A stretch of 64,000 nucleotides of DNA from Microbacterium ureisolvens. Its GTDB lineage: Bacteria; Actinomycetota; Actinomycetes; Actinomycetales; Microbacteriaceae. The stretch spans positions 372,001 to 436,000 of the forward strand of contig NZ_JADIJE010000001.1 of assembly GCF_015278315.1 (NCBI RefSeq), read 5' to 3'. Below, piece after piece: positions 2 to 26,941 of this stretch (position 1 is the first letter of the stretch; the number at the start of each line of letters is the position of its first letter). Both the position numbers and the translations under genes were made by a program. The notes beneath the pieces were generated by a model, which had not been told where the DNA came from, searched no databases, and was given only the letters and a program-made list of their open reading frames with translations.

Positions 2-1708
2 CGCCGCTCCGCCGTACGCCGCACCCGGGCTCGTCGGCTGTCCGCACTCGCCGTGACCGTCACCGCTCTGCTGGTCGCCGGTGCCGTGATTCCTGTCGTG
101 GCTTCCGCAGCTCCGGCGACCCCCGAGACGCTCTGGGGCGCCGCGCCCGACGCGACGCCGGTCGTCGACAGCGACCGTGTGCCGGTCGAGCTCGGCACCG
201 CCTTCGTGAGCGAGACCGACGGCGTGGTCCTGGGCGTGAAGTTCTGGAAGACGAAAGAGAACACAGGCACGCATGTCGGCAACCTCTGGGGGCCTGACGG
301 CAAGCTCCTGGCCACCGCGACCTTCGCCAACGAGACCCGCAGCGGCTGGCAGTCCGTGAGCTTCAGCCAGCCGGTGTCGGTCAAGGCCGACCAGCGGTAC
401 GTCGTCTCGTACCACGCTCCGAACGGCCGGTACGCATCGACCGTCGGATTCACCGCGCAGTCGGAGTCGAAGGTGCTCTCGGTTCCGGCGGGCCGCAGCG
501 GGGTCTACTCCTACGGCAAGTCGTCGACCTTCCCGACCAAGACCTGGCGCTCCAGCCAGTACTGGGTCGACACGATGTTCGTCGCCGACCCCAGTGCTCC
601 GGGTGCAACGCCCACGCCGACACCGACCGCGACGTCCACGCCGACCCCGCGGCCGACGGCGACCACTCAGCCGCGTCCGACTCCGACGGCGACCTCCACG
701 CCGACGCCGACTCCGACGCCGAAGCCCACCTCGACGCCGACGCCCACACCCACGCCCACTGCATCCCCGACTCCCACGACGCCGCCCGAACCCCCCGCCG
801 GCGGGGTCACCGCGCAGCCGTCGATCGGCAAGGGCTGGAATCTCACCTCCTCGAAGGTGGGGCTGGCACCCTTCGGACTGAAGTGCGCAGACCTGCCCGA
901 ATACAAGCAGACGGGCAACACCGTTCCCGCCGGCACGGTGATCTCGCGGATGCGCATCACCGGATGGCTCGATCTGTCGATGGGCAACATCACCATCAAA
1001 GAGAGCTGCATCCAGCCCAAGCCCGGTGCCGTCGGTATGGGAACCACCTCGCTGACCACCTGGAACAACAATCGCGGTCTGCAGGGACCCATCACCATCC
1101 AAGACAGCGAGTACGACGGCTCCCTGCTCTCCGATCGCGAGAAGGCGTTCATCGGCTTCTTCAACGGCGTCGCCAGCATGTACCGCAACTACGTCCACGA
1201 CTCGGGCAGTGGCATCGGCATCCAGGGCAGCTACGAGAAGACCGGCGCGAACGTCGTCATCCAGAACAACTACGTCGATCGGCTGATCGCTTACGGTGAC
1301 GCGAACGGGAGCGGAAATCACCAGTCCGCGTTCACGGTCCGAGACCTCGACAGCTCGACCAACGCCAACCGCCAGCTTCTCGTGAAGGACAACTACTTCG
1401 ACTGCGACGGCGCCAACGCCACCGGGGCCTTCTTCGTCCAGGCCAACGGGGACGATGTCCGCAACCTCACCGCGCAGGGTAACCTGCTGGCGGGCATGGG
1501 ATTCAACCTCATCCTCGAAGACGACCAGGGCCGATTCCCCGGCGTCACGTACTACAACATGCGAGCCATCGACAACCGCATGCTGCCGACGGAGTACGGG
1601 CCGACGAAGCTCGCGGGAAGAGGCGAAGGCTGGGCGCAGTGGACGGACAACTACCTCTACAGCCCGTCCGGCACCGATGGCAAGGGAAAGGTGGTGGCCG
1701 AGCCGTAG
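2..1708 (+). CDS. Secreted DUF4082 / right-handed beta-helix protein, 5' end outside window
   Basis: A GTG at 53 is available, but the frame stays open to the left edge and reads an Arg-rich stretch (RRSAVRRTRARR) running into a hydrophobic core and an Ala-rich cleavage region (ASAAPA). The real start with its signal-peptide n-region therefore lies off the window. After the signal comes a DUF4082 module of about 150 residues with the family pattern (VELGTAF, GVKFWK, TGTHVGNLWG, GWQSV, YVVSYHAPNGRYA). Next is a Thr/Pro linker of about 60 residues (DNA 600-795). The last ~290 residues resemble a right-handed parallel beta-helix (repeated short strands such as IVIQNNYV, LLVKDNYFDC), as in polysaccharide-binding or -cleaving proteins. 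No catalytic residue could be assigned. It converges on the glycosyltransferase at 1725. It probably acts outside the cell on, or as part of, the glycan made by the neighbouring genes; that role is inferred. Confidence 0.8.
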   Translation, partial: RRSAVRRTRARRLSALAVTVTALLVAGAVIPVVASAAPATPETLWGAAPDATPVVDSDRVPVELGTAFVSETDGVVLGVKFWKTKENTGTHVGNLWGPDGKLLATATFANETRSGWQSVSFSQPVSVKADQRYVVSYHAPNGRYASTVGFTAQSESKVLSVPAGRSGVYSYGKSSTFPTKTWRSSQYWVDTMFVADPSAPGATPTPTPTATSTPTPRPTATTQPRPTPTATSTPTPTPTPKPTSTPTPTPTPTASPTPTTPPEPPAGGVTAQPSIGKGWNLTSSKVGLAPFGLKCADLPEYKQTGNTVPAGTVISRMRITGWLDLSMGNITIKESCIQPKPGAVGMGTTSLTTWNNNRGLQGPITIQDSEYDGSLLSDREKAFIGFFNGVASMYRNYVHDSGSGIGIQGSYEKTGANVVIQNNYVDRLIAYGDANGSGNHQSAFTVRDLDSSTNANRQLLVKDNYFDCDGANATGAFFVQANGDDVRNLTAQGNLLAGMGFNLILEDDQGRFPGVTYYNMRAIDNRMLPTEYGPTKLAGRGEGWAQWTDNYLYSPSGTDGKGKVVAEP

Positions 1709-10815: not shown

Positions 10816-13800
10816 CTAGTTGTCGGGGTCGAAGACGACGTCGACCCAGAGCTTGGTGGTCGTCGTCGTGCTCGGATACCCCGTGCTGTAAGAGTAGGCG
10901 CCACCGGTCGCAATGGTCGAGATCGGACCGTTCGTTACCACGGAACTCAGTCCGCCCGACGTCGAAGCGTAGACGCGGGACGTGCTGTACATGCTCACCC
11001 GGTACTCCGCGCCGACGGTGAGACGGACCGCCGTCGACAGCGTGGCCGTCTGCCAGCCGGAGGAGCTCTCGCCGGTGAATGTGACCGTAGCCAGTCGCTG
11101 ACCCGTCGCGTCCCAGAGGTAGCCGGTATGCGTGCCGACGTTCAGCGCGCCCTTATAGAACTTGATGGCCGTCACCACCCCCGGTGCGTTCGTCTTGAAG
11201 CGCGTGCCCGCATTGATGTTCTGAACCGTCGACGTGTTCGCGCTCGTCGGCGTGCCCGTGGTGAAGAGGCTGACCTGGTCAGGCTTCGCCATCGTCGTGA
11301 AGGACCACGTCCCGCCGGAGACCGCGCCTCCGTTGGCCGTCACGGTCGCCGTGTAGGACTTCGTCCAGTCGAGCGTCGCCGTCGGAGCGAAGCTCACGAC
11401 CCGCGTCGTGGCATTGTACGTCGACGTGCCCGGCACGTTCGTCGTCCCCTGTGCCAGCGTGATCGCACCAGCCTGAGCCCCGCTCGACAGCGTGGCGGTG
11501 ATGGTGCGACCTGTCGGGTTGACATTCGTGGCGTTGGGCGTCGGCGAGCTCGAGGACCGCGTCGCCTGCGCGATCGTGGTGAACGACCACGCGCCTCCCG
11601 AGATCGCCCCGCCGTTCGCCGTCGCGGTGACCGAGTAGGTGCGCGAGAAGCCCAGCGCCGCCGCGGGTGTAAAGGTCACGACCCCGGTCGCGGCATTGAA
11701 GCTGGAGGATCCGGCCACGGCAGCTCCGCCCGTGGTGACGGTGATCGCGGCCGAGGACACGTTCGAGATCGTGGCGGAGATCGGCGCATTCACCAAGACC
11801 CCGGTCGCGGAGGATGCCGGAGTCCTCGCCGTGATCGCGGGGTTGGGCAGGGTGGTGAACGACCAGGTCCCCCCGGTCACCGCCGCGCCGTTGGCCGTCG
11901 CCGTCACCGCGTACGTCCTCGCCCGCTGCAGCGCGGCCGTAGGGGTGAACGTGACCACACCAGTCGATGCGTTGAAGCTGGACGTCCCCGCCACCGCCGC
12001 ACCACCCGAGGTGACGGTGATCGCGCCGGTAGAGGCATAGGCGAGCGTGGCCGACACCACCGCGGTCACCGGGTCCACGTTCGTGGCGTCAGAGGCGGGG
12101 GTCTTCGCGGTCAGCGACGGGTTCGGAATGGTCGTGAACGACCAGCCGCTGCCCACCGCGAAGCCGTCGGCGGTCACCGATGCGGTGTACGTGCGAGCCG
12201 GCTCCAGCGGCGTCGAGGGAGTGAACGTGACGACGCCCGTCGCCGCGACGAAGCTCGACGTGCCGGCGACCGGCGTGCCGGCGCTCGACAGCGCCAGGCT
12301 CGCCGAGGAGGCGTTCGTCAACGTGGCCGAGACGGTCGTGTCGAGCGCCACGTTCGTCTGACCGGCGGATGGCGAGGTCGAGCCGACGGTCACGGCGGCG
12401 CGCGTCGTGAAGGACCAGGCCCCATCGGCGACCGGCGCGCCGTTCGCCGTCACCGCGACACTGTAGGTGCGCCCCCGCTGCCATGGGCCCGTCGGCGTGA
12501 AGACGACCGCACCGGTGCCTTCGTCGAAGCTCGACGCACCGGGGACCGCGCCGCTCGCGTCCGAGACGGTGAGCGATGCGCTCGAGGCGTCGGCGACGTT
12601 CGCCGAGACGACCAGCGCGTTGGGATCGACACCGGTCGCGCCGGCGGACGGTGCGAAGCTCGTGAGCGTGGGCGCCGGGGGTGGAGCATCCGGTCCGTCG
12701 AAGTCGATCTCGGCATCGACGAAGTACGCCGTCGCGTTGAACGATGTCACGGGGAAACCGCCGGTCGGCGAATACAGGAACCGCCCGTTGGTCGTCGCGG
12801 GAGCGGTGATGAAGCCGACCGTCCGTTCCTGCGCGAAGTACGACGGCGTGTACGCGTAGCGACCGCTCGGAGCGAAGTACGAGACCGTGTAGACCGTGCC
12901 GGGTTCGACCGCCACCGGCTCAGCAAGCGCGGCACGCTGCCATCCGTCCGCCGTCTCGTTCACGAAGTCGACCTGCGCGAGCGGGTTGCCCGCGCCATCC
13001 CACAGTGTTCCGCGGTGTGCGCCGGTCGCGCCGGTGCCCTTGTAGAAGCGGATCGCCGTCACCTCGCCGGGCTCGGCCACCTGGAACCGGGTACCCACCT
13101 CGACCGGGTCCGTGTCGGGGACGGTGCTGCGCGGCGTGGCGGTTCCGAACAGCGTCTGGGTGCCGCCGGCTGTCGTGAACGTCCAGGTGTCCACCGCTGC
13201 ACCGTCGGAAGTGACAGTCGCCGAGTACTCGGTGGCCGACTTGAGTCGTTCGGTCGGGTCGAAGGTGATGCGCCTGCTTCCCGAATCGAACGTGGATGTT
13301 CCGGCCACCGCTCCATCGGGGCCGACCACGGTCAGCGCTACGGCGCGGGTTCCCGGGTCGCCGGTGAGCGTCGCGGCCACATCGCTGGTGATGGCCACAT
13401 CCGTGGAGTTCTTCGCCGGGGACACCGAGGCGACCGCGATGGCGGGGCCGGTGTCCTTGACGAACTCGACGTCGGCGAAATAGTTGGTGGAGTTGTACGA
13501 CGACGTCGGTATGACGCCGCCAGTGCCGTACCGGTAGCGACCGTTGTTGGGGCTGATGGCAGTGAGCGGTCCGTTCGTCACCGGGGTGCTGAAACCCCGG
13601 GAGGTGTACGCGTAGCGCCCGTTCGGCGAGTAGTAGGACACCAGGTACGTCCCGCCGGGGACGATGGCGACGGGAGTGCTGAGCACCGCCCGCTGCCACC
13701 CGGACGCTGATTCGGCAGCGAAGGTCACCTGGGCGAGCCGCTGTCCGTCGGGGCCCCACAACGAGCCGGTGTGGACACCGGTCGTCCCCGGGGTCTTGTA

Positions 13801-16800
13801 GTAGCGGAGTGCTCTGATCTGCCCTGCCTCGGAGGCGGTGAAGGCCATTCCGAGCTCCACCGCGGAGGTGTCACCGTCGACAGAGGCGGGCACGCCGGTG
13901 GCGAGGAGACTTACCGCGGGATCACCGCCGCCGACGGTGAACGACCAGGTGAAGGGACTCGCGGTCGTCCCGGAGGCGCTCTTGACGCCCGACAGCGTTA
14001 CGGCGACGCGCGCGCCGGCGAGGAACGGGGATGCCGGCGTGAACGTGAGAGTCTTCTGCGCGTTGCTCACCCCCCAGGCCCCTGCCACCTCGACGCCATC
14101 GGCCCGCACGGACCCGGTGAAACCGGTCTGGACACCCTCGTCGAACGTCGCCGTGACAGTAGTGCCCGGGGCCACGTCGACGGCCTCAGGTGCCGGTGTG
14201 CGTTCGGTGATCGTCGGCACATCGGTGGGCAGGGTAAACACGACGTCGACCCCGTAGTCCGTCGACGACGAGGAGGTCGGGAACCCGCTGGAGTAGGTGT
14301 AGACCGCACCGCCCGCCGGCACCGTGAGGGGTCCTCGCGAGTACGCCGCGGAGAAGGCGCCTGACGTCGCCGAGTACCGGCCCTGCGGAGCCACATAGGA
14401 GGCGATGTAGGTGACGCCCGGCTGCACCGTCACGGACTTGTCGAGCGTTGCGATCTGCCAGCCCTGCGTCGACTCGTCCGTGAAGGTCGCCGATGCGAGC
14501 TTCGTCCCGTCCGCCGACCAGAGCGCGCCGGTGTGAGAACCCAGGTTCGCCGACCCCTTGTAGAACTTGATCGCGCTCACGACACCGGCGGTCGTAGGGC
14601 TGAACTTGACGCCCAGCGTCACCAGCGCGCTGTCCACCGCGGAGACGACGGTGGGAACGCGGCTCTCCGAGAAGAGGGAGCACGGGCAGTCGCCCACCGG
14701 GCGGTCTTCCGCACGAGTCGTGAAGGACCACGCTGCCCCGGATTCCAGGCCGACGCCGTTGGCATCCACCGCGGCGGGTGTGACGACGTACTTCGTGCTG
14801 GGTTGAAGTGCGGCCGCCGGCGTGAACGTCGCTTTGCGAGACGCCGCATCGTACGAGACCGCACCGCTGACGGCCGCCCCTGCTGCGGTGGCGACGGTGA
14901 TCTGTACTGTCGCGGGGTCGGCCGGACGGGTGAACACCACGCTGATCGGCGTCGAGGGCGACACGCTCGAGACGCCGGCGGCGGGGACGCGTTCCTGCAC
15001 CCGCAGCGGCGATGTGTCAGACTTGGTGAAGATCGCGTCGACGAAGTAGTTGGTCTCTTTCCACGCGTTCGTGGGGAATCGTCCCGGGCTGCCGTACACG
15101 CCCGGCGCCGCTGCACCCACGGCCGAGGTCACCGTGACGGGCGAGGAGGCCCGCGCCGAATACGGCCAGTAGCGCTCGGCGACGGAGTAGCCACCACTCG
15201 GCGCGGTGTACGAGACCGTGTACGTCTGCCCCGCGATCACCGGAACCGGAGAGGTGAACTGCACCGACTGCCAGCCCGTCGCCGACTCGTTGGTGAAAGT
15301 CGCGCTGTTCAGCAGCGCGCCCGACGAGTTCCAGAGAGCACCGACGTGAGTCCCGACGTTCGTCGAGCCCTTGTAGAAGCGCACACCCGCGACGTACCCG
15401 TCGAAGTCCGGCACGAAGCGAAGGCCGAGTTCGACGGCCTGGGTGTCGTTGGCCGACGGGATCGCCGGAACGATGTCGCCGAGCGCGCTGAAGGGCCCGG
15501 TGACCGTCACGGTGCGCTTGACCCCTGCAGCCGAGAAGTTGGCGCTGTCGTCGATCGCACGGGCGATGATCGAGGCGGTTCCGCTGCCCTGCTGCACGTA
15601 CGTGTAGGTCCAGGTGTCGGTTCCGACTGCCGGGCGCCACGTGGCACCGCCATCGGTCGAGACCTCGACGCCAGCGACGCGGCCGCCGCCGCTGTCCGAG
15701 GCGGTCCCGGTCACGGTGACCGACGTCCCGTTCGCGACGGTCTGGTCAGCGGTGGGGGAGGTGATCGTCGTCGTCGGCGCCGTGACGTCGGTGCTCTTGG
15801 TGGCGGCGACGAGCCCGGTCATGAGCGATCCCGGCTGGGCTCCCATGTCGGCAAGCAGGTTGACCTGCGCCTGCTGCATTCGCGGATCGGCGGGAGCGCC
15901 GGCGCCGTCATGCTCCTGGTCCAGACCCCAGCCCCACTGGATGCTCGCAGCGGAGAAGACCAGTGCACCGCTGGGCGCCTTGTAGAGCGTGACGTTGTGC
16001 CTGGTGGTTCCCGGGACGACGGTGTTGCCGTAGTCGGTGAGGTACTGCGGTGTCGGGCCCACCGTGGTCGACAGCCGGATGAGGCCTCCGGGACTGAACC
16101 CGTTGTCGGACACCTCGTTGGACTCGTAGCCGACCGTGTGCGGGGCGAGCGCAGCCGTGGTCCCTGCGGCGAGCGAAGTCAGGTTCGTGTTGCGCCACAT
16201 CCGGTACTTGCCCTCGGCGGCAGACACCGTCACGGCGAGGTCGTCGTCGTTGACGAAGTACATCGTCCCGGTCAGGGCGTTCTCGGGCGAATGGCCACCC
16301 TTCGTCGCGTCGGCGAACCGCGGGTCACGCCATGTCCCCGTCCACTCCGGGGCGGGATCGATCTTCCCGTTGGCCCACGTCTCCTTATACGAGACGAGCG
16401 TGCGATAAGGGGTGTTCGAGCCGTCGGCGGCGGGCTCGTACCTCGTGCGCCAGTAGCCCTCGTTGCCCGTCAGGAACTGAAGGTTGACCCCCGCATCGCG
16501 CGCGGCCATGATGTTGGCGCGCTGAGCGCCGGACCAGTACTCGTCGTGACCCACGGACAGGAACACGTCGTGGTTGAGCAGCTCGCCGCCGCGCCGGTCG
16601 GTGTCGACGCCGGCGATGTAGCTCATGTCGTAGCCGTTGCGCTCCAGGAAGCGTACGGTGGCGAACTCGGAGCTGAAGTAGAAGTCGCGGGCGGTGTCGG
16701 GGCGACGGGTGTTGAACGGCCGGTTGTAGCTGAGCTTGTATCCGCGGCCGAGCGCCGCGCCCTGGTAGAAGCTGGAGCCGCCGTATGTGTTGTACGCCTG

Positions 16801-17427
16801 CCAGGTGGTGTCGGACGTCTGGAACAGCACATCGGAGGTGTTGCCGTCCTTGCGGACGATGAAGATGATGTGGCTGGAGCCGCCGTCGTCGGCGCGCGTC
16901 AGCTTGGCCACGTAGACGCCGGACACGGCATCCGCCGGGACGTTCCAGGAGGCGGAGACCCCCCACGTGCCGCAGTCGTAGAGCTCCGTCGTCACATCGG
17001 AGATGCATTCCGGCTGATTCTGCGGAAGCTGCGCGGTGACGGGAACGGAGGTGATGAAGCGGGCACCCAGACCCTGGTACCAGCCCGTCCGATAGATGTC
17101 GATGTCGTATGCGCGGGCATCCGTGTCGATCTTGAAGTCGATTCTCGACCCGGCGTTCACACTGATGTCGGTCGCGAAGCCTTGAATGCTGGAGTCGCCG
17201 GCCCCGGAGATGTCCCAGTCTTCGGGGTCGGTGCCGGGCTTCTGGTTCTCGCACACGATGGGGTTGATGCTCGCACCGCACGGGCTCGCGGCCTGGGCGA
17301 CGGGCGTCGGCTCGAAGGCCACGAACGCCGTCGCGACCAGAGCCACGATCGCGACGAACGTCCCGATACGTGCGCGGCTGGACCAGCGTCGACGAACTCC
17401 GACCGTCCCCATAGCTGTATTCGTCAT
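10816..17427 (-). CDS. Giant secreted modular protein: DMFase-beta-like domain, Ig-like modules and five DUF4082 modules
   Basis: About 2,203 residues. The ATG at 17427 is chosen because a GGGG ribosome site precedes it and a signal peptide follows (RRRWSSRARIG, hydrophobic core, PVAQA at about 46); an earlier in-frame start at 17520 adds only a non-signal leader. Order: domain resembling the C-terminal part of the N,N-dimethylformamidase large subunit (about 47-545; WYQGLGAR, LSVGHDEYWSG, FLTGNEGYWRTRYE); one Ig-like domain (to about 645); then DUF4082 modules beginning near 646, 907, 1168 and 1422, each followed by Big_5/SbsA-type Ig modules, the last by five in a row; and a fifth DUF4082 at the C-terminus. 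No LPXTG motif or transmembrane anchor at the end. Probably extracellular; substrate unknown. Confidence 0.85.
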   Translation of the reverse strand: MTNTAMGTVGVRRRWSSRARIGTFVAIVALVATAFVAFEPTPVAQAASPCGASINPIVCENQKPGTDPEDWDISGAGDSSIQGFATDISVNAGSRIDFKIDTDARAYDIDIYRTGWYQGLGARFITSVPVTAQLPQNQPECISDVTTELYDCGTWGVSASWNVPADAVSGVYVAKLTRADDGGSSHIIFIVRKDGNTSDVLFQTSDTTWQAYNTYGGSSFYQGAALGRGYKLSYNRPFNTRRPDTARDFYFSSEFATVRFLERNGYDMSYIAGVDTDRRGGELLNHDVFLSVGHDEYWSGAQRANIMAARDAGVNLQFLTGNEGYWRTRYEPAADGSNTPYRTLVSYKETWANGKIDPAPEWTGTWRDPRFADATKGGHSPENALTGTMYFVNDDDLAVTVSAAEGKYRMWRNTNLTSLAAGTTAALAPHTVGYESNEVSDNGFSPGGLIRLSTTVGPTPQYLTDYGNTVVPGTTRHNVTLYKAPSGALVFSAASIQWGWGLDQEHDGAGAPADPRMQQAQVNLLADMGAQPGSLMTGLVAATKSTDVTAPTTTITSPTADQTVANGTSVTVTGTASDSGGGRVAGVEVSTDGGATWRPAVGTDTWTYTYVQQGSGTASIIARAIDDSANFSAAGVKRTVTVTGPFSALGDIVPAIPSANDTQAVELGLRFVPDFDGYVAGVRFYKGSTNVGTHVGALWNSSGALLNSATFTNESATGWQSVQFTSPVPVIAGQTYTVSYTAPSGGYSVAERYWPYSARASSPVTVTSAVGAAAPGVYGSPGRFPTNAWKETNYFVDAIFTKSDTSPLRVQERVPAAGVSSVSPSTPISVVFTRPADPATVQITVATAAGAAVSGAVSYDAASRKATFTPAAALQPSTKYVVTPAAVDANGVGLESGAAWSFTTRAEDRPVGDCPCSLFSESRVPTVVSAVDSALVTLGVKFSPTTAGVVSAIKFYKGSANLGSHTGALWSADGTKLASATFTDESTQGWQIATLDKSVTVQPGVTYIASYVAPQGRYSATSGAFSAAYSRGPLTVPAGGAVYTYSSGFPTSSSSTDYGVDVVFTLPTDVPTITERTPAPEAVDVAPGTTVTATFDEGVQTGFTGSVRADGVEVAGAWGVSNAQKTLTFTPASPFLAGARVAVTLSGVKSASGTTASPFTWSFTVGGGDPAVSLLATGVPASVDGDTSAVELGMAFTASEAGQIRALRYYKTPGTTGVHTGSLWGPDGQRLAQVTFAAESASGWQRAVLSTPVAIVPGGTYLVSYYSPNGRYAYTSRGFSTPVTNGPLTAISPNNGRYRYGTGGVIPTSSYNSTNYFADVEFVKDTGPAIAVASVSPAKNSTDVAITSDVAATLTGDPGTRAVALTVVGPDGAVAGTSTFDSGSRRITFDPTERLKSATEYSATVTSDGAAVDTWTFTTAGGTQTLFGTATPRSTVPDTDPVEVGTRFQVAEPGEVTAIRFYKGTGATGAHRGTLWDGAGNPLAQVDFVNETADGWQRAALAEPVAVEPGTVYTVSYFAPSGRYAYTPSYFAQERTVGFITAPATTNGRFLYSPTGGFPVTSFNATAYFVDAEIDFDGPDAPPPAPTLTSFAPSAGATGVDPNALVVSANVADASSASLTVSDASGAVPGASSFDEGTGAVVFTPTGPWQRGRTYSVAVTANGAPVADGAWSFTTRAAVTVGSTSPSAGQTNVALDTTVSATLTNASSASLALSSAGTPVAGTSSFVAATGVVTFTPSTPLEPARTYTASVTADGFAVGSGWSFTTIPNPSLTAKTPASDATNVDPVTAVVSATLAYASTGAITVTSGGAAVAGTSSFNASTGVVTFTPTAALQRARTYAVTATANGAAVTGGTWSFTTLPNPAITARTPASSATGVLVNAPISATISNVSSAAITVTTGGAAVAGSSSFNAATGVVTFTPAAALGFSRTYSVTATANGGAISGGAWSFTTIAQATRSSSSPTPNATNVNPTGRTITATLSSGAQAGAITLAQGTTNVPGTSTYNATTRVVSFAPTATLDWTKSYTATVTANGGAVSGGTWSFTTMAKPDQVSLFTTGTPTSANTSTVQNINAGTRFKTNAPGVVTAIKFYKGALNVGTHTGYLWDATGQRLATVTFTGESSSGWQTATLSTAVRLTVGAEYRVSMYSTSRVYASTSGGLSSVVTNGPISTIATGGAYSYSTGYPSTTTTTKLWVDVVFDPDN
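11283..12670 (-). repeat. Five tandem ~275-bp coding repeats (Big_5 Ig-like modules)
   Basis: Each unit ends in WSFTT and contains a TSSF/STY-x-TGVVTFTP core followed by RTY-x-VTA-NG. The near-constant spacing of the WSFTT codons (around 11292, 11577, 11850, 12131 and 12405) shows tandem duplication. Such arrays usually act as a stalk that extends a terminal domain away from the surface. Confidence 0.8.
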
Positions 17428-17678
17428 GATCCCCAGTCCCCGCCGACGTCGCGGCCATCTTCCGTTGCGACCCCGGTCGCGAATGAGCCCGCATCGCACG
17501 CCGACATTCCCCAATGACACGGCGATCCGGGTATTCCCGCGGGCAGTATATCCTCATGCGATCCCTGCGCGCAGGGTGAGCTTGGCACCTTTACCCACTC
17601 TTGAGGGAGCAGCGGATGTCGCCGCTGATACTTCGCTCATGACACACCCCGCTCCGGCCGATGTGAGAAAGCAGATCG
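17428..17678. promoter_or_regulatory. Divergent spacer between the giant protein gene and the WbpD-like gene
   Basis: 251 bp that must hold promoters for both directions. On the minus strand TATACT at 17545-17550 is a good -10 box, giving a leader of about 110 nt to the giant gene. For the plus gene a weak TTGAGG/GATACT pair with an over-long spacer precedes the start by about 55 nt. A short palindrome CGGGTATTCCCG lies at 17528-17539, just downstream of the minus-strand -10. No gene seen. Confidence 0.4.
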
Positions 17679-18278
17679 ATGTCAGATGCACCCGTGATAC
17701 AGGCATCCGCCGATGTCGCCGCCGGCGCCGAACTCGGCCCGCGCACGCGCGTCTGGCACCTCGCCCAGGTGCGCGAGGGCGCCAAGCTCGGCGCCGACTG
17801 CAACGTGGGCCGAGGAGCATACGTCGGCCCCGGTGTCGTCATGGGAAGCAGCTGTAAGCTGCAGAACTACGCGCTCGTCTACGAGCCCGCACGCCTGGGC
17901 GACGGTGTCTTCGTCGGTCCCGCCGCGGTGCTCACCAACGACGAGTTTCCGCGCGCCGCCAACCCTGACCTCTCCGTCAAGAGCGCGGACGACTGGCATG
18001 CGGTCGGCGTCACGATCGGCGACGGCGCCTCGATCGGCGCGCGGGCCGTCTGCATCGCCCCGGTGACGATCGGGGAATGGGCGCTCGTCGCCGCCGGCGC
18101 GGTGGTGACCACTGATGTCGCGCCATACGCTCTGGTCGTGGGCGTGCCTGCGCGCCGCGTCGGGTGGGTCGGCCGGGTCGGCAAGCCGCTGATCGCGGAC
18201 GGTGACGCGTGGGTGTGCCCCGAGTCGGGCGAGCGGTACCTTCAAGAGGGCGAGACCCTCCGGCCGGAGCTCACTTGA
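17679..18278 (+). CDS. WbpD/WlbB-like UDP-amino-sugar N-acetyltransferase
   Basis: 199 residues, ATG with a GAGAAAG-type site upstream. Nearly the whole chain is a left-handed beta-helix of hexapeptide repeats (IQASADVAAGAELGPRTRVW, VGRGAYVGPGVVMGSSCKLQ, VTIGDGASIGARAVC). It ends with GVPARRVGWV and a CPESGERY tail typical of WbpD/WlbB, which acetylate the 3-amino group of UDP-2-acetamido-3-amino sugars. The family needs partners equal to the Gfo/Idh and aminotransferase genes at 9682 and 5822, although this gene runs in the opposite direction and needs its own promoter. Its 3' end overlaps the convergent DUF4082 gene by 8 bp. Confidence 0.87.
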   Translation: MSDAPVIQASADVAAGAELGPRTRVWHLAQVREGAKLGADCNVGRGAYVGPGVVMGSSCKLQNYALVYEPARLGDGVFVGPAAVLTNDEFPRAANPDLSVKSADDWHAVGVTIGDGASIGARAVCIAPVTIGEWALVAAGAVVTTDVAPYALVVGVPARRVGWVGRVGKPLIADGDAWVCPESGERYLQEGETLRPELT

Positions 18279-20271
18279 TCGTGGAGTTGGTGAACGACGG
18301 GTTGCCGCTGCCCAAGTAGAAGATGCCCGGGTAGTTCTCGAAGCTCTGCGGCGTCGGCTGGCCGCTGGCGGCGTACGTGTTTCCGCTGCTCGTCGTCTGG
18401 TCGATGTAGAGGCGCCCGGTGCGACTGTTGCTGACGTAGAAGATGGCGCTGCCGCCCGCCTTGGCCGAGTTCCGCTCGATGCGCGAGCCCGAGATGCGGA
18501 CATCATACGTGCCGCCGTCGGTGTAGATGGCCCCGCCACTGCCGCCGCCGGGGGTCCCGGGCTTCGGAGGGTTCGCGCAGCACCCCACGGCACTGTTGTC
18601 CGTCAGCAGGCTGTTGACGATGGTGATCGGCGTCCGCAGACCGCTGATCGCGCCGCCGTTCGAGCAGCTGTTGCCCTTCCCCGCCGCGCCGCCGAACGTG
18701 CTGTTCACGATGACGACAGGATCCTGGTTCATCGCCGCCTGCGAAGGGTCCAGGCTGTTCGGCGTCGCCGAGTGCTGGGCAAGGACCCTTACCGCACCGC
18801 CGCCGAGGTCCGGCCCGTTGGGCGCACAGGTGTTGCCGGTGAAGATCGTGTTGACGACCTTCAGTCGGCCGCCCAGCGCGAAGATCGCGCCGCCGCCGTT
18901 GGAGCCCTGGTTGACGTCACCAGGCGACACATACGACTCGTTGGTGGCGTTGCCGTCTGCGAGGGTGATGTTCTGGACGGTCACGCGCGGGTACGCAGGT
19001 GCGTACAGGCAGTTGCCGGGCACCGAGCCGAGCGACGAATCGCACGTGTCGATGTAGAGGATGCGCCGCACATCACCACCCGACAGCGTGACGAGTCCGC
19101 CCCCGTCGATCACGAGGTTCTGGGTGCTGTTGCGGATCTTGAGCGTCTGCGAAAGCGGGATCGTGACAGGACTCGACCCGCAGTTGAACGTCACGACGCC
19201 GCCGGCAGCGACCGCCGCGACGACGGCCGCAGATGTGCAGCTCGCGGCGGTGCCCGTTCCGACGACGGCGGTCGGGCGGCTGGCATCTTCGGCGCCCATG
19301 CCAGCGGGTACGGGCACGGCGCCGCTGGCGTTGCCCGGCTGGAAACCCGCAGGCGGGCTCGGAGTCGCGGGCGGCGCGGGCGTCGTCGTCGCGGAGGTCG
19401 TGAAGGTCCGATCCACCTTGGAAACGGTGACGTTTCCCGCCGCGTCGACGGAGCGCACCTGATAGTGGTAGGTGACACCGGCGGCGAGACCGGAGATCGT
19501 CTGCCGATGCGCCGTCGCCATCGTCGAGTCCAGCGTCGTGGTCTTGCCATACGCGCTCGTCGTGCCGAAGTTGATCTGAGTGCTGGCCGCCTCGTTCGTC
19601 GTCCACGAGATCGTGGCGCTGGTCTGCGTGACCCCGGATGCCGACACCGCGCTGATCACGGGTGCCACGGTGTCTGCAGGCGCCGCAGCGGGTGTGAACA
19701 GCACGTCGACGTAGTAGTTCGAAGCCCGGTAGGTCGACGAGGGGAAGCGGGACGCACCGTAGGCATAGACCCCGGCGTTCGCCGGTGCGGTCAGGTCGCC
19801 GCGGGTCACGGCGCTCGTGAATGCCGACGTCGCGGCAGCGTAATGCCCTCGGGGCGCGTGGTAGGACGCGACGTAGCTGGTGCCTTTCGTGACGGTCACC
19901 GGTGTGCTGAATCGTGCTACCTGCCAGCCCGACGCGGTCTCCTCGGTGAACGTCGTCGTCGCGAGGCGCTGCCCGGACGCGCTCCACAGGCTCCCGGTAT
20001 GGGTACCGGTGTTTCCGACTCCCTTGTAGAAGCGGATCCCCGAAACGGTGCCGCTGACGGCCGGTACGATCGTGAGACCGAGTTCGACCGCACCACTGTC
20101 GTCGAATGCGGTGATGGCCGGCTTCTCGGTCCCGAAGAATGTCGCCTCCGTCGTCGCCGCAACAGCGGGGGCGGCGAGCGTCACGCCCGTCACGGCGAGC
20201 ACCAGCGCGAGCAGCACAGCGAGTGCGCGCCGAAGCGAGCGTGGAGGGGCGGCGTTGAATCGGCTCATCAT
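18271..20271 (-). CDS. Secreted DUF4082 / FN3-like / beta-helix protein
   Basis: About 666 residues from the second of two adjacent ATGs, with GAGGA upstream. Signal peptide with an Arg-rich start (SRFNAAPPRSLRRAL) and cleavage near APAVAA. One DUF4082 module at about 40-190 (VELGLTI, GIRFYKGVGNTGTHTGSLW, GWQVARF). Then an FN3/Ig-like domain (DTVAPVISAVSASGVT, ISWTTNEAASTQI, YHYQVRSVD) at about 195-290, a Pro-rich linker, and a C-terminal beta-helix of about 340 residues with polymorphic-outer-membrane-like repeats (GGGAIFALGG, GGAISGL, GGAIYTDGG). Several cysteines occur in the helix (CDSS, NCLY, GCCANP). Probably extracellular; no catalytic motif found. Paired palindromes upstream suggest dedicated regulation. 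Confidence 0.83.
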   Translation of the reverse strand: MMSRFNAAPPRSLRRALAVLLALVLAVTGVTLAAPAVAATTEATFFGTEKPAITAFDDSGAVELGLTIVPAVSGTVSGIRFYKGVGNTGTHTGSLWSASGQRLATTTFTEETASGWQVARFSTPVTVTKGTSYVASYHAPRGHYAAATSAFTSAVTRGDLTAPANAGVYAYGASRFPSSTYRASNYYVDVLFTPAAAPADTVAPVISAVSASGVTQTSATISWTTNEAASTQINFGTTSAYGKTTTLDSTMATAHRQTISGLAAGVTYHYQVRSVDAAGNVTVSKVDRTFTTSATTTPAPPATPSPPAGFQPGNASGAVPVPAGMGAEDASRPTAVVGTGTAASCTSAAVVAAVAAGGVVTFNCGSSPVTIPLSQTLKIRNSTQNLVIDGGGLVTLSGGDVRRILYIDTCDSSLGSVPGNCLYAPAYPRVTVQNITLADGNATNESYVSPGDVNQGSNGGGAIFALGGRLKVVNTIFTGNTCAPNGPDLGGGAVRVLAQHSATPNSLDPSQAAMNQDPVVIVNSTFGGAAGKGNSCSNGGAISGLRTPITIVNSLLTDNSAVGCCANPPKPGTPGGGSGGAIYTDGGTYDVRISGSRIERNSAKAGGSAIFYVSNSRTGRLYIDQTTSSGNTYAASGQPTPQSFENYPGIFYLGSGNPSFTNSTIK

Positions 20272-20393
20272 CGTCGGGTGGATTCCTCGGGGATGTTGCG
20301 GCAGGACTCGCGAGTCATTCGGACAGCCGAACTGGATGGGGGAATCCGACGGCCCATTCAGGCTCGCACGCGGGCGAGCGAGGGCTCCGGTCT

Positions 20394-20430
20394 GTGAGAG
20401 CAATCTCACGGGGTGTGAGAGGAGTCTCAC
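20394..20430 (-). promoter_or_regulatory. Two tandem palindromic operator-like sites
   Basis: GTGAGA-GCAA-TCTCAC at 20394-20409 and GTGAGA-GGAG-TCTCAC at 20415-20430 are two perfect 6+6 palindromes with centres 21 bp apart, two turns of the helix. They lie about 120-160 bp upstream of the DUF4082/beta-helix start at 20271 and downstream of the GT2 gene stop. Matched arms with unmatched centres are the signature of two dimers of one transcription factor. The factor is unknown, and no clear -10 box was found nearby. Confidence 0.6.
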
Positions 20431-20459: not shown

Positions 20460-20482
20460 GGATGCCGCGGGCTGCGGCATCC
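20460..20482 (-). terminator. Hairpin after the GT2-GtrA gene
   Basis: GGATGCCGC, a 5-nt loop and GCGGCATCC form a perfect 9-bp stem 6 bp past the GT2 stop codon. No T-tract follows on the minus strand. The arms are the octamer that recurs throughout this genome segment. Confidence 0.5.
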
Positions 20483-20487
20483 GTTCA

Positions 20488-21645
20488 CTACAGCTCGCCG
20501 GGCTGCATGACCTCTTCGTCGATCTCCTCGATGATGCGCCGCGCACGCGACGGCTCGACGCCGGGCTTGCGGGGCGCGTAGACCACGAGCGAGTGGAACA
20601 GGAAGCGCACGAAGAATGCCAGGACGAGGGTGATCGCGGTGGCGACGACCGCCGAGATGTGGCCCGTTGAGACCATCAGAGCCACGATCGGGATGCGCAC
20701 GAGCGCCTCTGCGTTGTTGAAGGTGAATGACTTGGCGAACCGCAGCCACACGCCCGACGCGTTCTCGCGCATGTCGTCGAAGACGAATCGCTCCTGCAGC
20801 AGGAAGTTGCCGATGATCGTCGCCTCGGCGGCGATGACGGCGGCGATGATGTAGTCCACGCCGAGCTGTGTGAGCGCCCACACGATCGCGACGTTGGCGA
20901 TCGCGCCGAGCCCGCCGATGACGGCGAAGAGAGACATCTTGCCGAAGCGCAGCGCGGTCAGCTGTGCGAGGAAGTGCAGCCCCTGACGCACCGACGCCTT
21001 GGACTCGCCCGCGTGCCGGTCGGCGAAGTCGAACGGCACCTCGGCGACCCGCATCGGCCGGCGCGCGAGGATCTCGAGCAGGATCTTGAAGCCGCGAGGC
21101 TGGAGCAGCGCCTGGTCGACACTGCGGCGGTCGATGAGGAAGTAGCCCGTCATCGGGTCGGTCACGTCGCGCAGCCGGATCGGGAACATCGCGCGGGTGA
21201 GCGCCGTCGAGGCCTTCGACACCATCACGCGGGTGCGGTCGGCGAGCCCGTGGGCGGTGCCGCCGCCGGCGTAGCGCGAGGCGATCACGACGTCGACGTC
21301 GCCGGCCGCGAACCGCTGCCACATCTCCGGGATCTTCTCGGGCGGATGCTGCAGATCGCCGTCGATGACGAGGCACGCGTCGGCCTCCGCGGCCGTGAGC
21401 CCCTCCAGCACCGCGCCGCCGAGACCGCCGGTGGGCTCGTCCCGGTGGATGATCCGGACGGGAAGAGAAGCGGATGCCGCAACCTGGCGGACGACGTCGG
21501 GCGTGGAATCCGTGCTGTCGTCGACGAACAGGATCTCGGCGTCGATGCCGCCGGGCACGGTCGCCAGCGCCGAGGTGACGCGCCGGACGAGCTCCGCGAC
21601 GTTGGGAGCCTCGTTGTACGTCGGGACGACGATAGACAGCTGCAT
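20488..21645 (-). CDS. GT2 polyprenyl-phosphate mannosyltransferase-like protein fused to GtrA domain
   Basis: 385 residues from ATG with GAGG 8-11 nt upstream. The N-terminal ~235 residues are a GT2 domain of the DPM1/Ppm1 type (LSIVVPTYNEAPNVAELVRR, FVDDSTDST, VIDGDLQHPPE, VIASRYAGGG, DPMTGYFLIDR), which loads a sugar from a nucleotide onto polyprenyl phosphate. The C-terminal ~130 residues are a GtrA/DPMS-like membrane domain with about four helices (SLFAVIGGLGAIANVAIV, NFLLQERFVFDD). It would supply a lipid-linked sugar for transfer outside the membrane, consistent with the surface-glycan neighbourhood. The sugar cannot be assigned. Confidence 0.87.
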   Translation of the reverse strand: MQLSIVVPTYNEAPNVAELVRRVTSALATVPGGIDAEILFVDDSTDSTPDVVRQVAASASLPVRIIHRDEPTGGLGGAVLEGLTAAEADACLVIDGDLQHPPEKIPEMWQRFAAGDVDVVIASRYAGGGTAHGLADRTRVMVSKASTALTRAMFPIRLRDVTDPMTGYFLIDRRSVDQALLQPRGFKILLEILARRPMRVAEVPFDFADRHAGESKASVRQGLHFLAQLTALRFGKMSLFAVIGGLGAIANVAIVWALTQLGVDYIIAAVIAAEATIIGNFLLQERFVFDDMRENASGVWLRFAKSFTFNNAEALVRIPIVALMVSTGHISAVVATAITLVLAFFVRFLFHSLVVYAPRKPGVEPSRARRIIEEIDEEVMQPGEL

Positions 21646-23773: not shown

Positions 23774-24622
23774 GTGAGCGTCGAACGCAATACCCGGGCG
23801 ATCGAGGGATCCGTCGTCACCGACTTCGAGGACCGCATGAGCTACGGCGGCTACCTCGACCTCGAGACGCTGCTGTCGGCGCAGCGACCACTCAGCGATC
23901 CGGAGCACCACGACGAGCTCCTGTTCATCGTGCAGCACCAGACCACCGAGCTGTGGCTGAAGCTCGTGCTGCACGAGCTCGGCGCCGCGTGCCGGCTGCT
24001 GCGGGAGGACCAGCTCGCACCGGCCCTCAAATGCATCGCGCGCGTCAAGCACATCCAGAAGACGCTCACCGAGCAGTGGTCGGTGCTGGCGACCCTGACC
24101 CCCGCCGAGTACGGGCAGTTCCGCGGCGTGCTGGGCAACGCGAGCGGGTTCCAGTCTGCGCAGTACCGCGCGGTCGAGTTCACGCTGGGCAACAAGAACG
24201 CCGGCATGCTGCGCGTCTTCGCGTCCGACCCGTCCGCCCACGCGCTGGTGAAGACCGCGCTCGAGGAGCCGAGCCTCTACGACGAGTTCCTGCGGTTGCT
24301 GGCGCGCTCCGGCTACCCGATCCCGGCCGACGTGCTCGAGCGCGACGTCACGACCGCGTGGACCTACTCCCCCGAGCTCGTCCCCGTGTTCACCGAGATC
24401 TACCGCGACCCTGAGGCCCACTGGGCCGCCTACGAGACCTGCGAGGAGCTCGTCGACCTGGAGGACAACTTCCAGCTCTGGCGCTTCCGCCACCTCAAGA
24501 CGGTCGAGCGCATCATCGGCCTCAAGACGGGCACGGGCGGCTCGAGCGGCGTGCCGTTCCTCCAGCGGGCACTCGACCTGACCTTCTTCCCCGAGCTGTA
24601 CGCCGTGCGGACGGAGCTGTGA
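23774..24622 (+). CDS. kynA: Tryptophan 2,3-dioxygenase
   Basis: 282 residues, GTG start. Heme enzyme that opens the indole ring of L-tryptophan to N-formylkynurenine, the first step of the kynurenine pathway. Family marks: MSYGGYLDLETLLSAQ, FIVQHQTTELWLKL with the distal His at about 55, the FQSAQYRAVEF segment, and FRHLKTVERIIGLKTGTGGS, which holds the proximal heme His at about 240 and the substrate-carboxylate loop. Those positions match the well-studied Xanthomonas enzyme. The stop overlaps the start of the amidohydrolase gene, so kynA, the amidohydrolase and kynU form one operon. Confidence 0.96.
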   Translation: MSVERNTRAIEGSVVTDFEDRMSYGGYLDLETLLSAQRPLSDPEHHDELLFIVQHQTTELWLKLVLHELGAACRLLREDQLAPALKCIARVKHIQKTLTEQWSVLATLTPAEYGQFRGVLGNASGFQSAQYRAVEFTLGNKNAGMLRVFASDPSAHALVKTALEEPSLYDEFLRLLARSGYPIPADVLERDVTTAWTYSPELVPVFTEIYRDPEAHWAAYETCEELVDLEDNFQLWRFRHLKTVERIIGLKTGTGGSSGVPFLQRALDLTFFPELYAVRTEL

Positions 24623-25602
24623 TGTCGCACGATCCCGAAGCGCTGCGGGCTCTGCTCGGCCCCGAGGCCGCCCTCTGCCGGCGGGCCATCACCGGCGAGC
24701 ACGGCGTCTCGCTGCCGCCCTTCATCGACCACCACGTGCATCTGCACCTCATCGACGAGACCGGGCTTGCCGCGGGCGGCATCGCCGGAGTCGTCGACCT
24801 CGGCGGCGACCCGGTCGCCCTCGCGCGGCGCGAGAACCACGGCATTCCGCGCGTGGCATACGCCGGCGCGTTCCTCACCGCGCCGGGCGGGTATCCGGTC
24901 GGGCGATCGTGGGCGCCGGCCGAGATCGCCCGCGAGATCAGCGATCCCTCGACCCACCCGGGCGTCCCCGGCGGCGCGGCGACAGCGGTCGACGAGCAGG
25001 CGTCGTTCGGGGCATCCGTCATCAAGGTCTCGCTCAACAGCACCGCCGGACCCGTCTTCGACGCCGCGACGCTCGCCGCCGTCGTCGAGCTCTCACGCGA
25101 GCGCGGTCTGCCCGTCGTCGCACATGCGGAGGGCGACGGAATGCCGCGGCTCGCGCTCGACGCGGGGGTCGACGGGTTCGCGCACACGCCGTTCGACGAG
25201 TTCGTCGGCCGCACGTTCACCGCCCACGCCATCTCGTCGGGACAGGTGTGGATCTCGACGCTCGCGATCCACGACGCGGACGCCGAGGCCGCCGAGTTCG
25301 CCCGTGTGAACCTCGCGGGCTTCGCCGCTGCCGGCGGCCGCGTACTGTACGGCACCGACCTGGGCAACGGCGATCAGCCGATCGGCGTCAATCCCGCCGA
25401 GGTCGCCGCGCTCGACCGCGCCGGCGTGCGCGGTGCGGCGCTCGTCGCCGCGATGGCCGACCCCTGGCCGGCGGCGGAACGGCCGTCCGGCGTGAGCACG
25501 TTCGTGCCCGGCCCGCCCCCGACCCGGCTCGACGATGTGCCCGAGTGGCTGCGGGCCGCCACCGTCGTCCCCACCGAGGAGCTGGTCCATGACGACCTCT
25601 GA
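24622..25602 (+). CDS. Amidohydrolase-superfamily protein in the kynurenine operon, candidate formylkynurenine formamidase
   Basis: 326 residues. TGATG overlap with kynA makes the ATG at 24622 the likely start; the GTG three bases earlier is also possible. A complete set of metal ligands of the amidohydrolase barrel is visible: IDHHVH (about 38 and 40), a Lys in SVIKVSLNS, His in VVAHAEGD (about 166), His in GFAHTPFDEF (about 188) and Asp in LYGTDLGNGDQP (about 246). Cytosolic, no signal peptide. It lies between the enzymes before and after N-formylkynurenine hydrolysis, and no KynB or alpha/beta-hydrolase formamidase is present in the cluster. Deformylation is therefore the natural guess, not proven. 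Confidence 0.83.
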   Translation: MSHDPEALRALLGPEAALCRRAITGEHGVSLPPFIDHHVHLHLIDETGLAAGGIAGVVDLGGDPVALARRENHGIPRVAYAGAFLTAPGGYPVGRSWAPAEIAREISDPSTHPGVPGGAATAVDEQASFGASVIKVSLNSTAGPVFDAATLAAVVELSRERGLPVVAHAEGDGMPRLALDAGVDGFAHTPFDEFVGRTFTAHAISSGQVWISTLAIHDADAEAAEFARVNLAGFAAAGGRVLYGTDLGNGDQPIGVNPAEVAALDRAGVRGAALVAAMADPWPAAERPSGVSTFVPGPPPTRLDDVPEWLRAATVVPTEELVHDDL

Positions 25603-26941
25603 CCCTGTCGCTGCAGCGCTCGGGGCGCGCGAAGACTCTTCGGGGCGCGCGGTGCACGCCCGTGACGCACCGGACGCGCCCCGAACCGCGCAAGAGCGCA
25701 CCGGCACCCGGGCGCGGCTCGCGGCGACGGCATCCGATCTCGACGCCGCCGACCCGCTGCGCACCCATCGCGACGCGTTCGTCGGTGCCGAGACGTCGCT
25801 GGTGTACTTCGACGGCAACTCGCTCGGCCGCCCGCTGCGCGCCAGCGTCGACCGCCTCGCGGCATTCGCGCGCGACGAGTGGGGCGGGCGGCTGATCCGG
25901 GGGTGGGACGAGTCGTGGATGCAGCTGCCGTTCGACATCGGCGACACGCTGGGGCGCGCCGCCATCGGGGCGGCCGCCGGGCAGACGGTCATCGGCGACT
26001 CGACCACGGTGCTCCTCTACAAGCTCGTGCGGGCCGCCTTCGATGCGGCCGTGGCGGCCGATCCCGCGCGCGTGGAGATCGTCGTCGATCGCGACAACTT
26101 CCCCACCGACCGCTACCTCGTCGAGGGCATCGCCGCCGAGCGGGGCGGGCGGGTGCGCTGGGTGGGCGTCGACCTGGCCGGCGGCGTGTCGGCCGACCTC
26201 CTGCAGGCCGCGGTCGGCCCCGCGACGGCCGTGGTGCTGCTCTCGCACGTCGCGTACCGGTCGGGATATCTGGCGGATGCCGCGAGCCTCACCCGCATCG
26301 CACACGACGCCGGCGCGCTCGTCGTGTGGGACCTCTGTCACTCCGCCGGCTCGGTGCCCGTCGAGGCCGACGCCTGGGATTTCGACCTCGCGGTGGGCTG
26401 CACCTACAAGTACCTCAACGGCGGACCGGGCTCGCCCGCGTTCGCCTATGTGGCGGCGAGACTGCAGGACCGCCTGGCTCAGCCGATCCAGGGCTGGATG
26501 GGCGCCGCGGACGTGTTCGCGATGGGGCCGGAGTACCGGCCGGCCGCGGGCATGCGGCGATTCCTGTCGGGCACGCCGCCGATCGTCGGCATGCTCGCGA
26601 TGCAGGACACGCTCGCCCTCCTCGAGGACGTCGGCATCCAGGCCGTGCGCGACAAGTCGATCGCCCTGACCGAGTTCGCCGTGCAGGTGTCCGATGAGCT
26701 GCTCACGCCGCTCGGGGTGGTCGTGGCGTCGCCGCGCGACCCGCAGACCCGCGGCGGACACGTGACGCTGTCGCACCCCGCGATGCGCGCGGTCACCGCG
26801 CGGCTGTGGACGCAGGACGTCATCCCCGACTACCGCGACCCCGGCGGGCTGCGGATCGGCCTCTCCCCGCTGTCGACCTCGTTCGCCGAGACCCTGGCAG
26901 GCCTCGAGGCGGTCGCCGAGGCGGTGCGCGCCGAGTCCTGA
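25589..26941 (+). CDS. kynU: Kynureninase
   Basis: 450 residues from the ATG at 25589, with GAGGAG upstream and a 14-bp overlap with the amidohydrolase gene. PLP enzyme that cleaves L-kynurenine to anthranilate and alanine. Visible: VYFDGNSLGRPL, STTVLLYKLVRAA, DRDNFPTDRYL, LSHVAYRSGYL, WDLCHSAGSVP, GCTYKYLNGGPGSPAF with the Schiff-base Lys near 274, and FLSGTPPIVGM. No 3-hydroxyanthranilate genes follow, so the cluster probably ends in anthranilate. The N-terminus is about 30 residues longer than usual and low-complexity; the added codons form a DNA palindrome (25639-25685). Confidence 0.95.
   Translation: MTTSDPVAAALGAREDSSGRAVHARDAPDAPRTAQERTGTRARLAATASDLDAADPLRTHRDAFVGAETSLVYFDGNSLGRPLRASVDRLAAFARDEWGGRLIRGWDESWMQLPFDIGDTLGRAAIGAAAGQTVIGDSTTVLLYKLVRAAFDAAVAADPARVEIVVDRDNFPTDRYLVEGIAAERGGRVRWVGVDLAGGVSADLLQAAVGPATAVVLLSHVAYRSGYLADAASLTRIAHDAGALVVWDLCHSAGSVPVEADAWDFDLAVGCTYKYLNGGPGSPAFAYVAARLQDRLAQPIQGWMGAADVFAMGPEYRPAAGMRRFLSGTPPIVGMLAMQDTLALLEDVGIQAVRDKSIALTEFAVQVSDELLTPLGVVVASPRDPQTRGGHVTLSHPAMRAVTARLWTQDVIPDYRDPGGLRIGLSPLSTSFAETLAGLEAVAEAVRAES
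25639..25685. repeat. Palindromic element inside the kynU 5' coding region
   Basis: TTCGGGGCGCG (25639-25649) and CGCGCCCCGAA (25675-25685) are perfect inverted arms. A CGGGGCGCGC copy also occurs 20 bp upstream. The element encodes disordered residues ahead of the enzyme fold. A related palindrome with GGTTCGGGGCG arms lies upstream of uvrA. Confidence 0.6.

Follow-up and report, generated by a model that had tools for sequence, protein, structure and literature searches.

Do the two palindromes that lie in front of a surface-protein gene in an exopolysaccharide locus of Microbacterium ureisolvens control that gene, and in which way? The comparison presented here indicates that the element is real and conserved, and that it most likely serves to control the surface-protein gene. 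Within the window (the whole stretch of 64,000 nucleotides that was analysed), GTGAGA-N4-TCTCAC occurs twice, exactly and with centres 21 bp apart, as an earlier note on this DNA had described. The promoter-proximal copy (GTGAGAGCAATCTCAC, positions 20394 to 20409, minus strand; minus-strand letters GTGAGATTGCTCTCAC) contains the core TGAG-N6-CTCA at 20395 to 20408, and the promoter-distal copy (GTGAGAGGAGTCTCAC, positions 20415 to 20430, minus strand; minus-strand letters GTGAGACTCCTCTCAC) is the sole exact match of the genome to the pattern TGAGNNTYCTCTCA. The two 16-mers are 5 nt apart, and both are kept in a sister genome, G365.

The tandem palindromes and their surroundings

The gene downstream of the palindromes (18271 to 20271, minus strand) encodes a secreted protein with an N-terminal DUF4082 domain, according to Pfam and to a signal peptide recognized by eye. 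Its start would be the ATG at 20271 or the one at 20268; only the latter is a start codon in common with G365, where the codon corresponding to 20271 is ATC. A long open reading frame with a mechanical start at 20430, overlapping the sites, was considered and set aside, being probably not the gene start since the signal-peptide-like sequence begins at 20271 or 20268. The earlier designation as a DUF4082/beta-helix gene holds for DUF4082 (Pfam, 1.4e-51); for the beta-helix, no family was recovered at a Pfam E value of 0.001. Upstream lies a gene for a family-2 glycosyltransferase with a GtrA domain (GT2-GtrA by Pfam; 20488 to 21645, minus strand), and the palindromes sit in the spacer between its stop (20488) and the start of the DUF4082 gene. 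After this stop, a perfect G+C-rich hairpin (20460 to 20482, minus strand) is observed, apart from the operators, a probable terminator without a T-run that is mostly kept in the alignment with G365; the terminator caller needs a T-run and therefore did not call it. No sigma-70 consensus promoter was found before the DUF4082 gene of M. ureisolvens. The candidate -10 region is GTGCGAGC (20362 to 20369, minus strand), a weak -10 match located about 25 nt past the proximal site, also in G365, and about where relatives have ATACT; for both genomes this assignment comes from the alignment, GTGCGAGC being poor as a -10.

The pair of palindromes is unusual. In the 4,493,068 bases of the genome there are no exact copies of the 16-mer other than these two, so that the scan proposed in the earlier note did not yield the expected regulon, nor was an autoregulated factor found by it. 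Copies with one mismatch number five, four of them inside open frames; the fifth (L004) stands before another gene and was rejected, having no further support. Allowing up to two mismatches, 85 sites are found against 29 for a reversed control, and the one-mismatch sites of TGAGNNTYCTCTCA in this genome include no further convincing promoter. Of 150 Markov copies of the window, 15 contain two non-overlapping perfect palindromes with 6-bp arms, of the same arm and loop and within 60 bp; none does when the arm must hold at least three A/T as in the real sites, a restriction that was picked after the sites had been seen. A looser count that includes overlapping palindromes gives a mean of 1.45 per Markov copy (60 copies). 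Since such copies also yield pairs, the palindrome pair by itself is not decisive, and the case rests on conservation.

That the palindromes are a chance or functionless local repeat would agree with how common repeated 6-bp-arm palindromes are in the Markov copies by the loosest of these counts. Also, the non-genic location of the motif across the genus hardly exceeds that of the control pattern: among the matches listed, 121 of 138 motif sites and 22 of 28 control sites are not deep in a predicted gene, with genes assigned by a codon-position GC heuristic instead of a gene finder. This location was dropped as evidence for a wide regulon. Conservation and spacing, described below, nonetheless make chance the least credible of the explanations considered, and a very remote one.

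Protein matches to the DUF4082 gene product at an E value of 1e-30 or better are present in 50 of 366 Microbacterium genomes, that of M. ureisolvens included, and G365 alone among the 366 holds a close homologue (85% identical). Its promoter reads GTGAGA-GTCC-TCTCAC, 6 nt, and GTGAGA-TTCC-TCTCAG, with a spacing of 22 bp. When the spacers of both genomes are aligned, agreement extends over both sites, GTGCGAGC and most of the hairpin, and much else has diverged. No other promoter examined has the tandem pair, whose spacing is 21 in M. ureisolvens and 22 in the sister. A search for the fixed tandem with a 5-nt spacer and up to three mismatches found it in one of 198 genomes, that of M. ureisolvens itself, in a sample that excluded G365, whose 6-nt spacer would escape that pattern. 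We propose that the tandem would have developed locally from a one-site operator present in part of the genus.

The genome contains three DUF4082 genes, all at this locus. One of the other two (window positions 2 to 1708, plus strand) starts shortly ahead of the window and is preceded by a TGAG-N7-CTCA palindrome; a degenerate copy lies 18 bp upstream of this palindrome, and GATGAA stands 27 nt downstream of it. The remaining one is a giant gene (10816 to 17520, minus strand) in which DUF4082 occurs in five stretches, together with a DMFA2_C domain and Big_5 repeats, and no operator was found before it. Over the window extended by 22 kb on its left, only three sites of the form TGAG-N6/7-CTCA occur, all before DUF4082 genes. 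Elsewhere in the window, three adjacent genes (23774 to 26941, plus strand) resemble by eye a tryptophan-kynurenine degradation operon.

The site in DUF4082 promoters of the genus

Conservation was assessed in 20 promoters, those of G365 and of 19 further loci, in which the open frame has 512 to 681 aa and matches in its N-terminal part. These loci were picked non-randomly and are related, not independent, and the gene starts in relatives are estimates from the alignment. Sixteen of the 20 promoters have TGAG-N6-CTCA in the 300 bp upstream of the gene, and no other arm spacing in the range 0 to 15 is found in more than one; for TGAG-N6-CTCA, the mean over 300 shuffles was 0.09, and the highest value 2. 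An inverted repeat of constant arm spacing before homologous genes, as an operator would present, is thus observed. The sequence is absent within 300 bp in four promoters (L079, L080, L082 and L094), one of which, L080, has it farther upstream. In four of the 16 site-bearing loci (L077, L081, L084 and L095) the core differs from TyCTCTCA. The earlier note had named lack of conservation before orthologues as grounds for abandoning its idea, and the matching site in 16 of 20 loci instead supports it.

Moreover, the distance from the site to a downstream element is nearly constant. In 11 of the 19 non-sister loci, TGAGNNTTCTCTCA is followed by ATACT after a gap of 29 nt (five loci) or 30 nt (six loci); two of the 11, in G270 and G271, have an identical promoter sequence. 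ATACT also lies 29 or 30 nt past the site in two other loci, L196 and L200. This near-constant position relative to promoter elements in the relatives is again a property of operators. ATACT resembles a -10 box, which would place the centre of the site near -48, directly upstream of the -35 region.

What these promoters share is not the perfect palindrome with 6-bp arms that the earlier note had taken as the unit. In relatives it is TGAG-N6-CTCA, whose arms are shorter and whose core is asymmetric, one half usually reading TyCTCTCA, and among the loci examined the longer symmetric arm belongs only to M. ureisolvens and G365. Seventeen sites (13 from single-site promoters, two from M. ureisolvens and two from G365) give a consensus of approximately rTGAGnnTyCTCTCAy, one 14-bp site, in which TGAG, T and CTCTCA were set by the search pattern for the 13 single-site promoters, only the free positions being informative. 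One of these, directly following TGAG, holds G or T in 13 of the 13, opposite a T.

The gene on the far side of the site is not constant. In the five relatives checked (L186, L188, L191, L196 and L200) it is in every case a divergent VanZ gene. In M. ureisolvens the VanZ gene stands elsewhere in the locus, in an operator-free stretch, and GT2-GtrA is the neighbour. As the neighbour varies in this way, the gene that the operator accompanies is DUF4082. All of this supports the proposal that the sites are regulatory and tied to the surface-protein gene, as they are conserved, lie off the hairpin at 20460 to 20482 and stay when the neighbour changes.

The layout is also specific. A search of the 366 genomes for TGAGNNTYCTCTCA followed by 26 to 32 nt and ATAC returned 13 matches in 13 genomes, all before DUF4082 genes, against two matches for the reversed-pattern control. 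Eleven of the 13 are loci that shaped the pattern, the new ones being L196 and L200. In the 366 genomes, this exact layout of operator and ATAC is thus confined to DUF4082 genes. Across GTDB species, operator plus ATACT was found in 34 stretches, seven of them in contigs assigned, or apparently belonging, to Microbacterium; the remaining 27, apart from L233 and L213, are presumed chance matches. The one-site promoter is present in M. trichothecenolyticum DSM 8608 (L216). TGAGNNTYCTCTCA alone occurs in 161 of 366 genomes, and the reversed pattern in 53 of 159. The exact 16-mer is present in 64 of the 366 genomes, including those of M. ureisolvens and G365 at the DUF4082 gene. Of the other 16-mer loci, 30 (L047 to L076) were compared with the DUF4082 protein, and none encodes a match. 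As a separate observation, contig JACEFY010000009.1 (L211), titled Stenotrophomonas maltophilia P13, matches a contig of Microbacterium G305 in length (19044) and carries the DUF4082 promoter of that genome, and its label is probably wrong.

A predicted activator and its alternatives

The reading that we favour, with a probability of roughly 0.6, is one of activation: a dimeric transcription factor would occupy the tandem sites and turn on the surface-protein (DUF4082) gene in the exopolysaccharide locus. The predicted dimer would bind at about -48, just upstream of -35, and at the weak promoter the bound factor would contact and recruit RNA polymerase. In M. ureisolvens, a second dimer could bind at about -69, on the same helix face and two turns further out, and could add affinity. 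We infer both the dimeric binding and the activation, and consider cooperativity between dimers possible. An activator would fit the near-constant spacing and the location just upstream of -35 better than a repressor or a terminator. Against this reading, most copies of the motif lack the promoter layout, with 82 of 106 distinct sites, among the matches listed, having no ATA 20 to 44 nt downstream. No regulator gene is evident by eye among the predicted genes of the locus (L357, L183, the window, L096 and the relatives' loci).

The main rival would be a repressor, a dimer at each palindrome blocking RNA polymerase and the tandem giving tighter repression. Repressors often have palindromic operators of this size, and two sites on one face would suit cooperative repression. 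However, 29 or 30 nt separate the end of the site from the -10-like box, which puts the site upstream of -35 and off the core promoter, and near-constant spacing with weak -35 elements (here the -35 regions were judged by eye) is typical of activators. Repression is then an unlikely explanation, though one to be kept in mind.

A third possibility concerns RNA, the palindromes forming a terminator or a leader hairpin. Both strands fold better than shuffles (z of -3.16 and -4.13), and in M. ureisolvens the sites do lie downstream of another gene of the same orientation. Nonetheless, GT2-GtrA has a hairpin of its own, there is no Rfam match and no T-run terminator, and neither a stem with a T-run nor paired changes were observed. 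Also, with G or T opposite T inside the arm, the 13 single-site promoters do not preserve the longer stem, and the site would lie upstream of the presumed -10, beside the divergent VanZ gene in the five relatives checked. An RNA element is for these reasons very improbable.

The predicted activator sites belong to a familiar general kind, the palindromic operators of dimeric bacterial activators upstream of -35. They share with these the inverted half-sites, the near-constant phase to -10 and tandem copies about two turns apart, and differ in the half-site, TGAG with N6, and in the asymmetric TyCTCTCA core. CRP/FNR-type sites, TGTGA-N6-TCACA centred at -41.5 or -61.5, likewise have 5-bp arms around N6 and 16 bp in total, but the arm here is RTGAG instead of TGTGA and the centre would be near -48, so the sites fall outside that class. 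The MacR box of Streptomyces coelicolor is TGAGTAC-N2-GTACTCA. This box also begins with TGAG and ends with CTCA, and MacR controls membrane-protein genes, whereas the box has N8 between TGAG and CTCA against N6 here, and no GTAC is present in our sites, which therefore do not count as MacR boxes. As far as a review summarizes it, the MacR consensus is established. MprA of Corynebacterium glutamicum is, like the predicted factor, an actinobacterial regulator of envelope genes, but the motif given for it, TKTTAAGAAM, is unrelated in sequence (PMC12113857). The operator sequence appears to be new and the kind of operator familiar; no report of the sequence was found in the literature searched, a scope that most subscription journals lie outside, and searches of the Microbacterium literature returned nothing relevant.

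DUF4082 proteins seem nearly unstudied, the domain being named in one paper of the literature searched. A control element that stays with the gene in part of the genus offers a defined DNA bait for the factor that would govern the surface protein, and the same bait possibly leads to the control of the surrounding exopolysaccharide locus.

Other sites in the genus and a possible wider regulon

The operator is also found before S8 subtilase genes in 11 other Microbacterium genomes (L113, L130, L136, L167, L250, L271, L275, L295, L300, L303 and L305), the family being confirmed in 11 of 11. In these promoters, the distances from the operator to CATAGCCT are 27, 27, 28, 37, 37, 37, 37, 38, 38, 39 and 39 nt, that is, two classes about one helical turn apart. 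Among the matches listed, 24 of 106 distinct sites have ATA 20 to 44 nt downstream, 11 DUF4082 and five subtilase promoters among them, and many other matches are near secreted- or surface-looking genes. These data are suggestive of a wider regulon that would include the S8 subtilases. A broader version is more tentative, and we hold it to be rather doubtful: one activator would govern much of the Microbacterium surface and secretome (DUF4082 of the exopolysaccharide locus, S8 subtilases and others) through rTGAGnnTyCTCTCAy, from two positions one turn apart relative to -10.

As for the identity of the regulator, a candidate would be an OmpR-type response regulator related to a two-component system linked to DUF347. 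TGAG-N6-CTCA sites occur before an operon of DUF347, response regulator and kinase, and its neighbours, in G365 (where the families were checked) and G110, and a DUF347-like gene was seen by eye next to a site in G205 as well (L121). Yet the sites there are mostly CTGAG..CTCAG, not rTGAG..CTCAy, and the M. ureisolvens genome has no close orthologue of the system, the best match being of 44% identity. This identification is improbable, if slightly less so than an RNA element. Operons of DUF347, an OmpR-type response regulator and a kinase, with intergenic TGAG-N6-CTCA sites, span 7052 to 12871 in L156 and 5123 to 9760 in L157, with mannosyltransferase or PAP2 genes nearby.

Several other settings of the motif were also noted. 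Perfect TGAG...CTCA palindromes lie, by eye, near the starts of DUF222/13E12 HNH-like genes in six loci (L158, L159, L163, L241, L242 and L283), and pilin-like genes are also seen near the motif. In four loci (L118, L244, L276 and L282) the motif stands, again by eye, with a TetR-like gene on one side and a gene for a secreted protein on the other, and in these same four a TTGAC..GTCAA palindrome overlapping the presumed -35 adjoins it.
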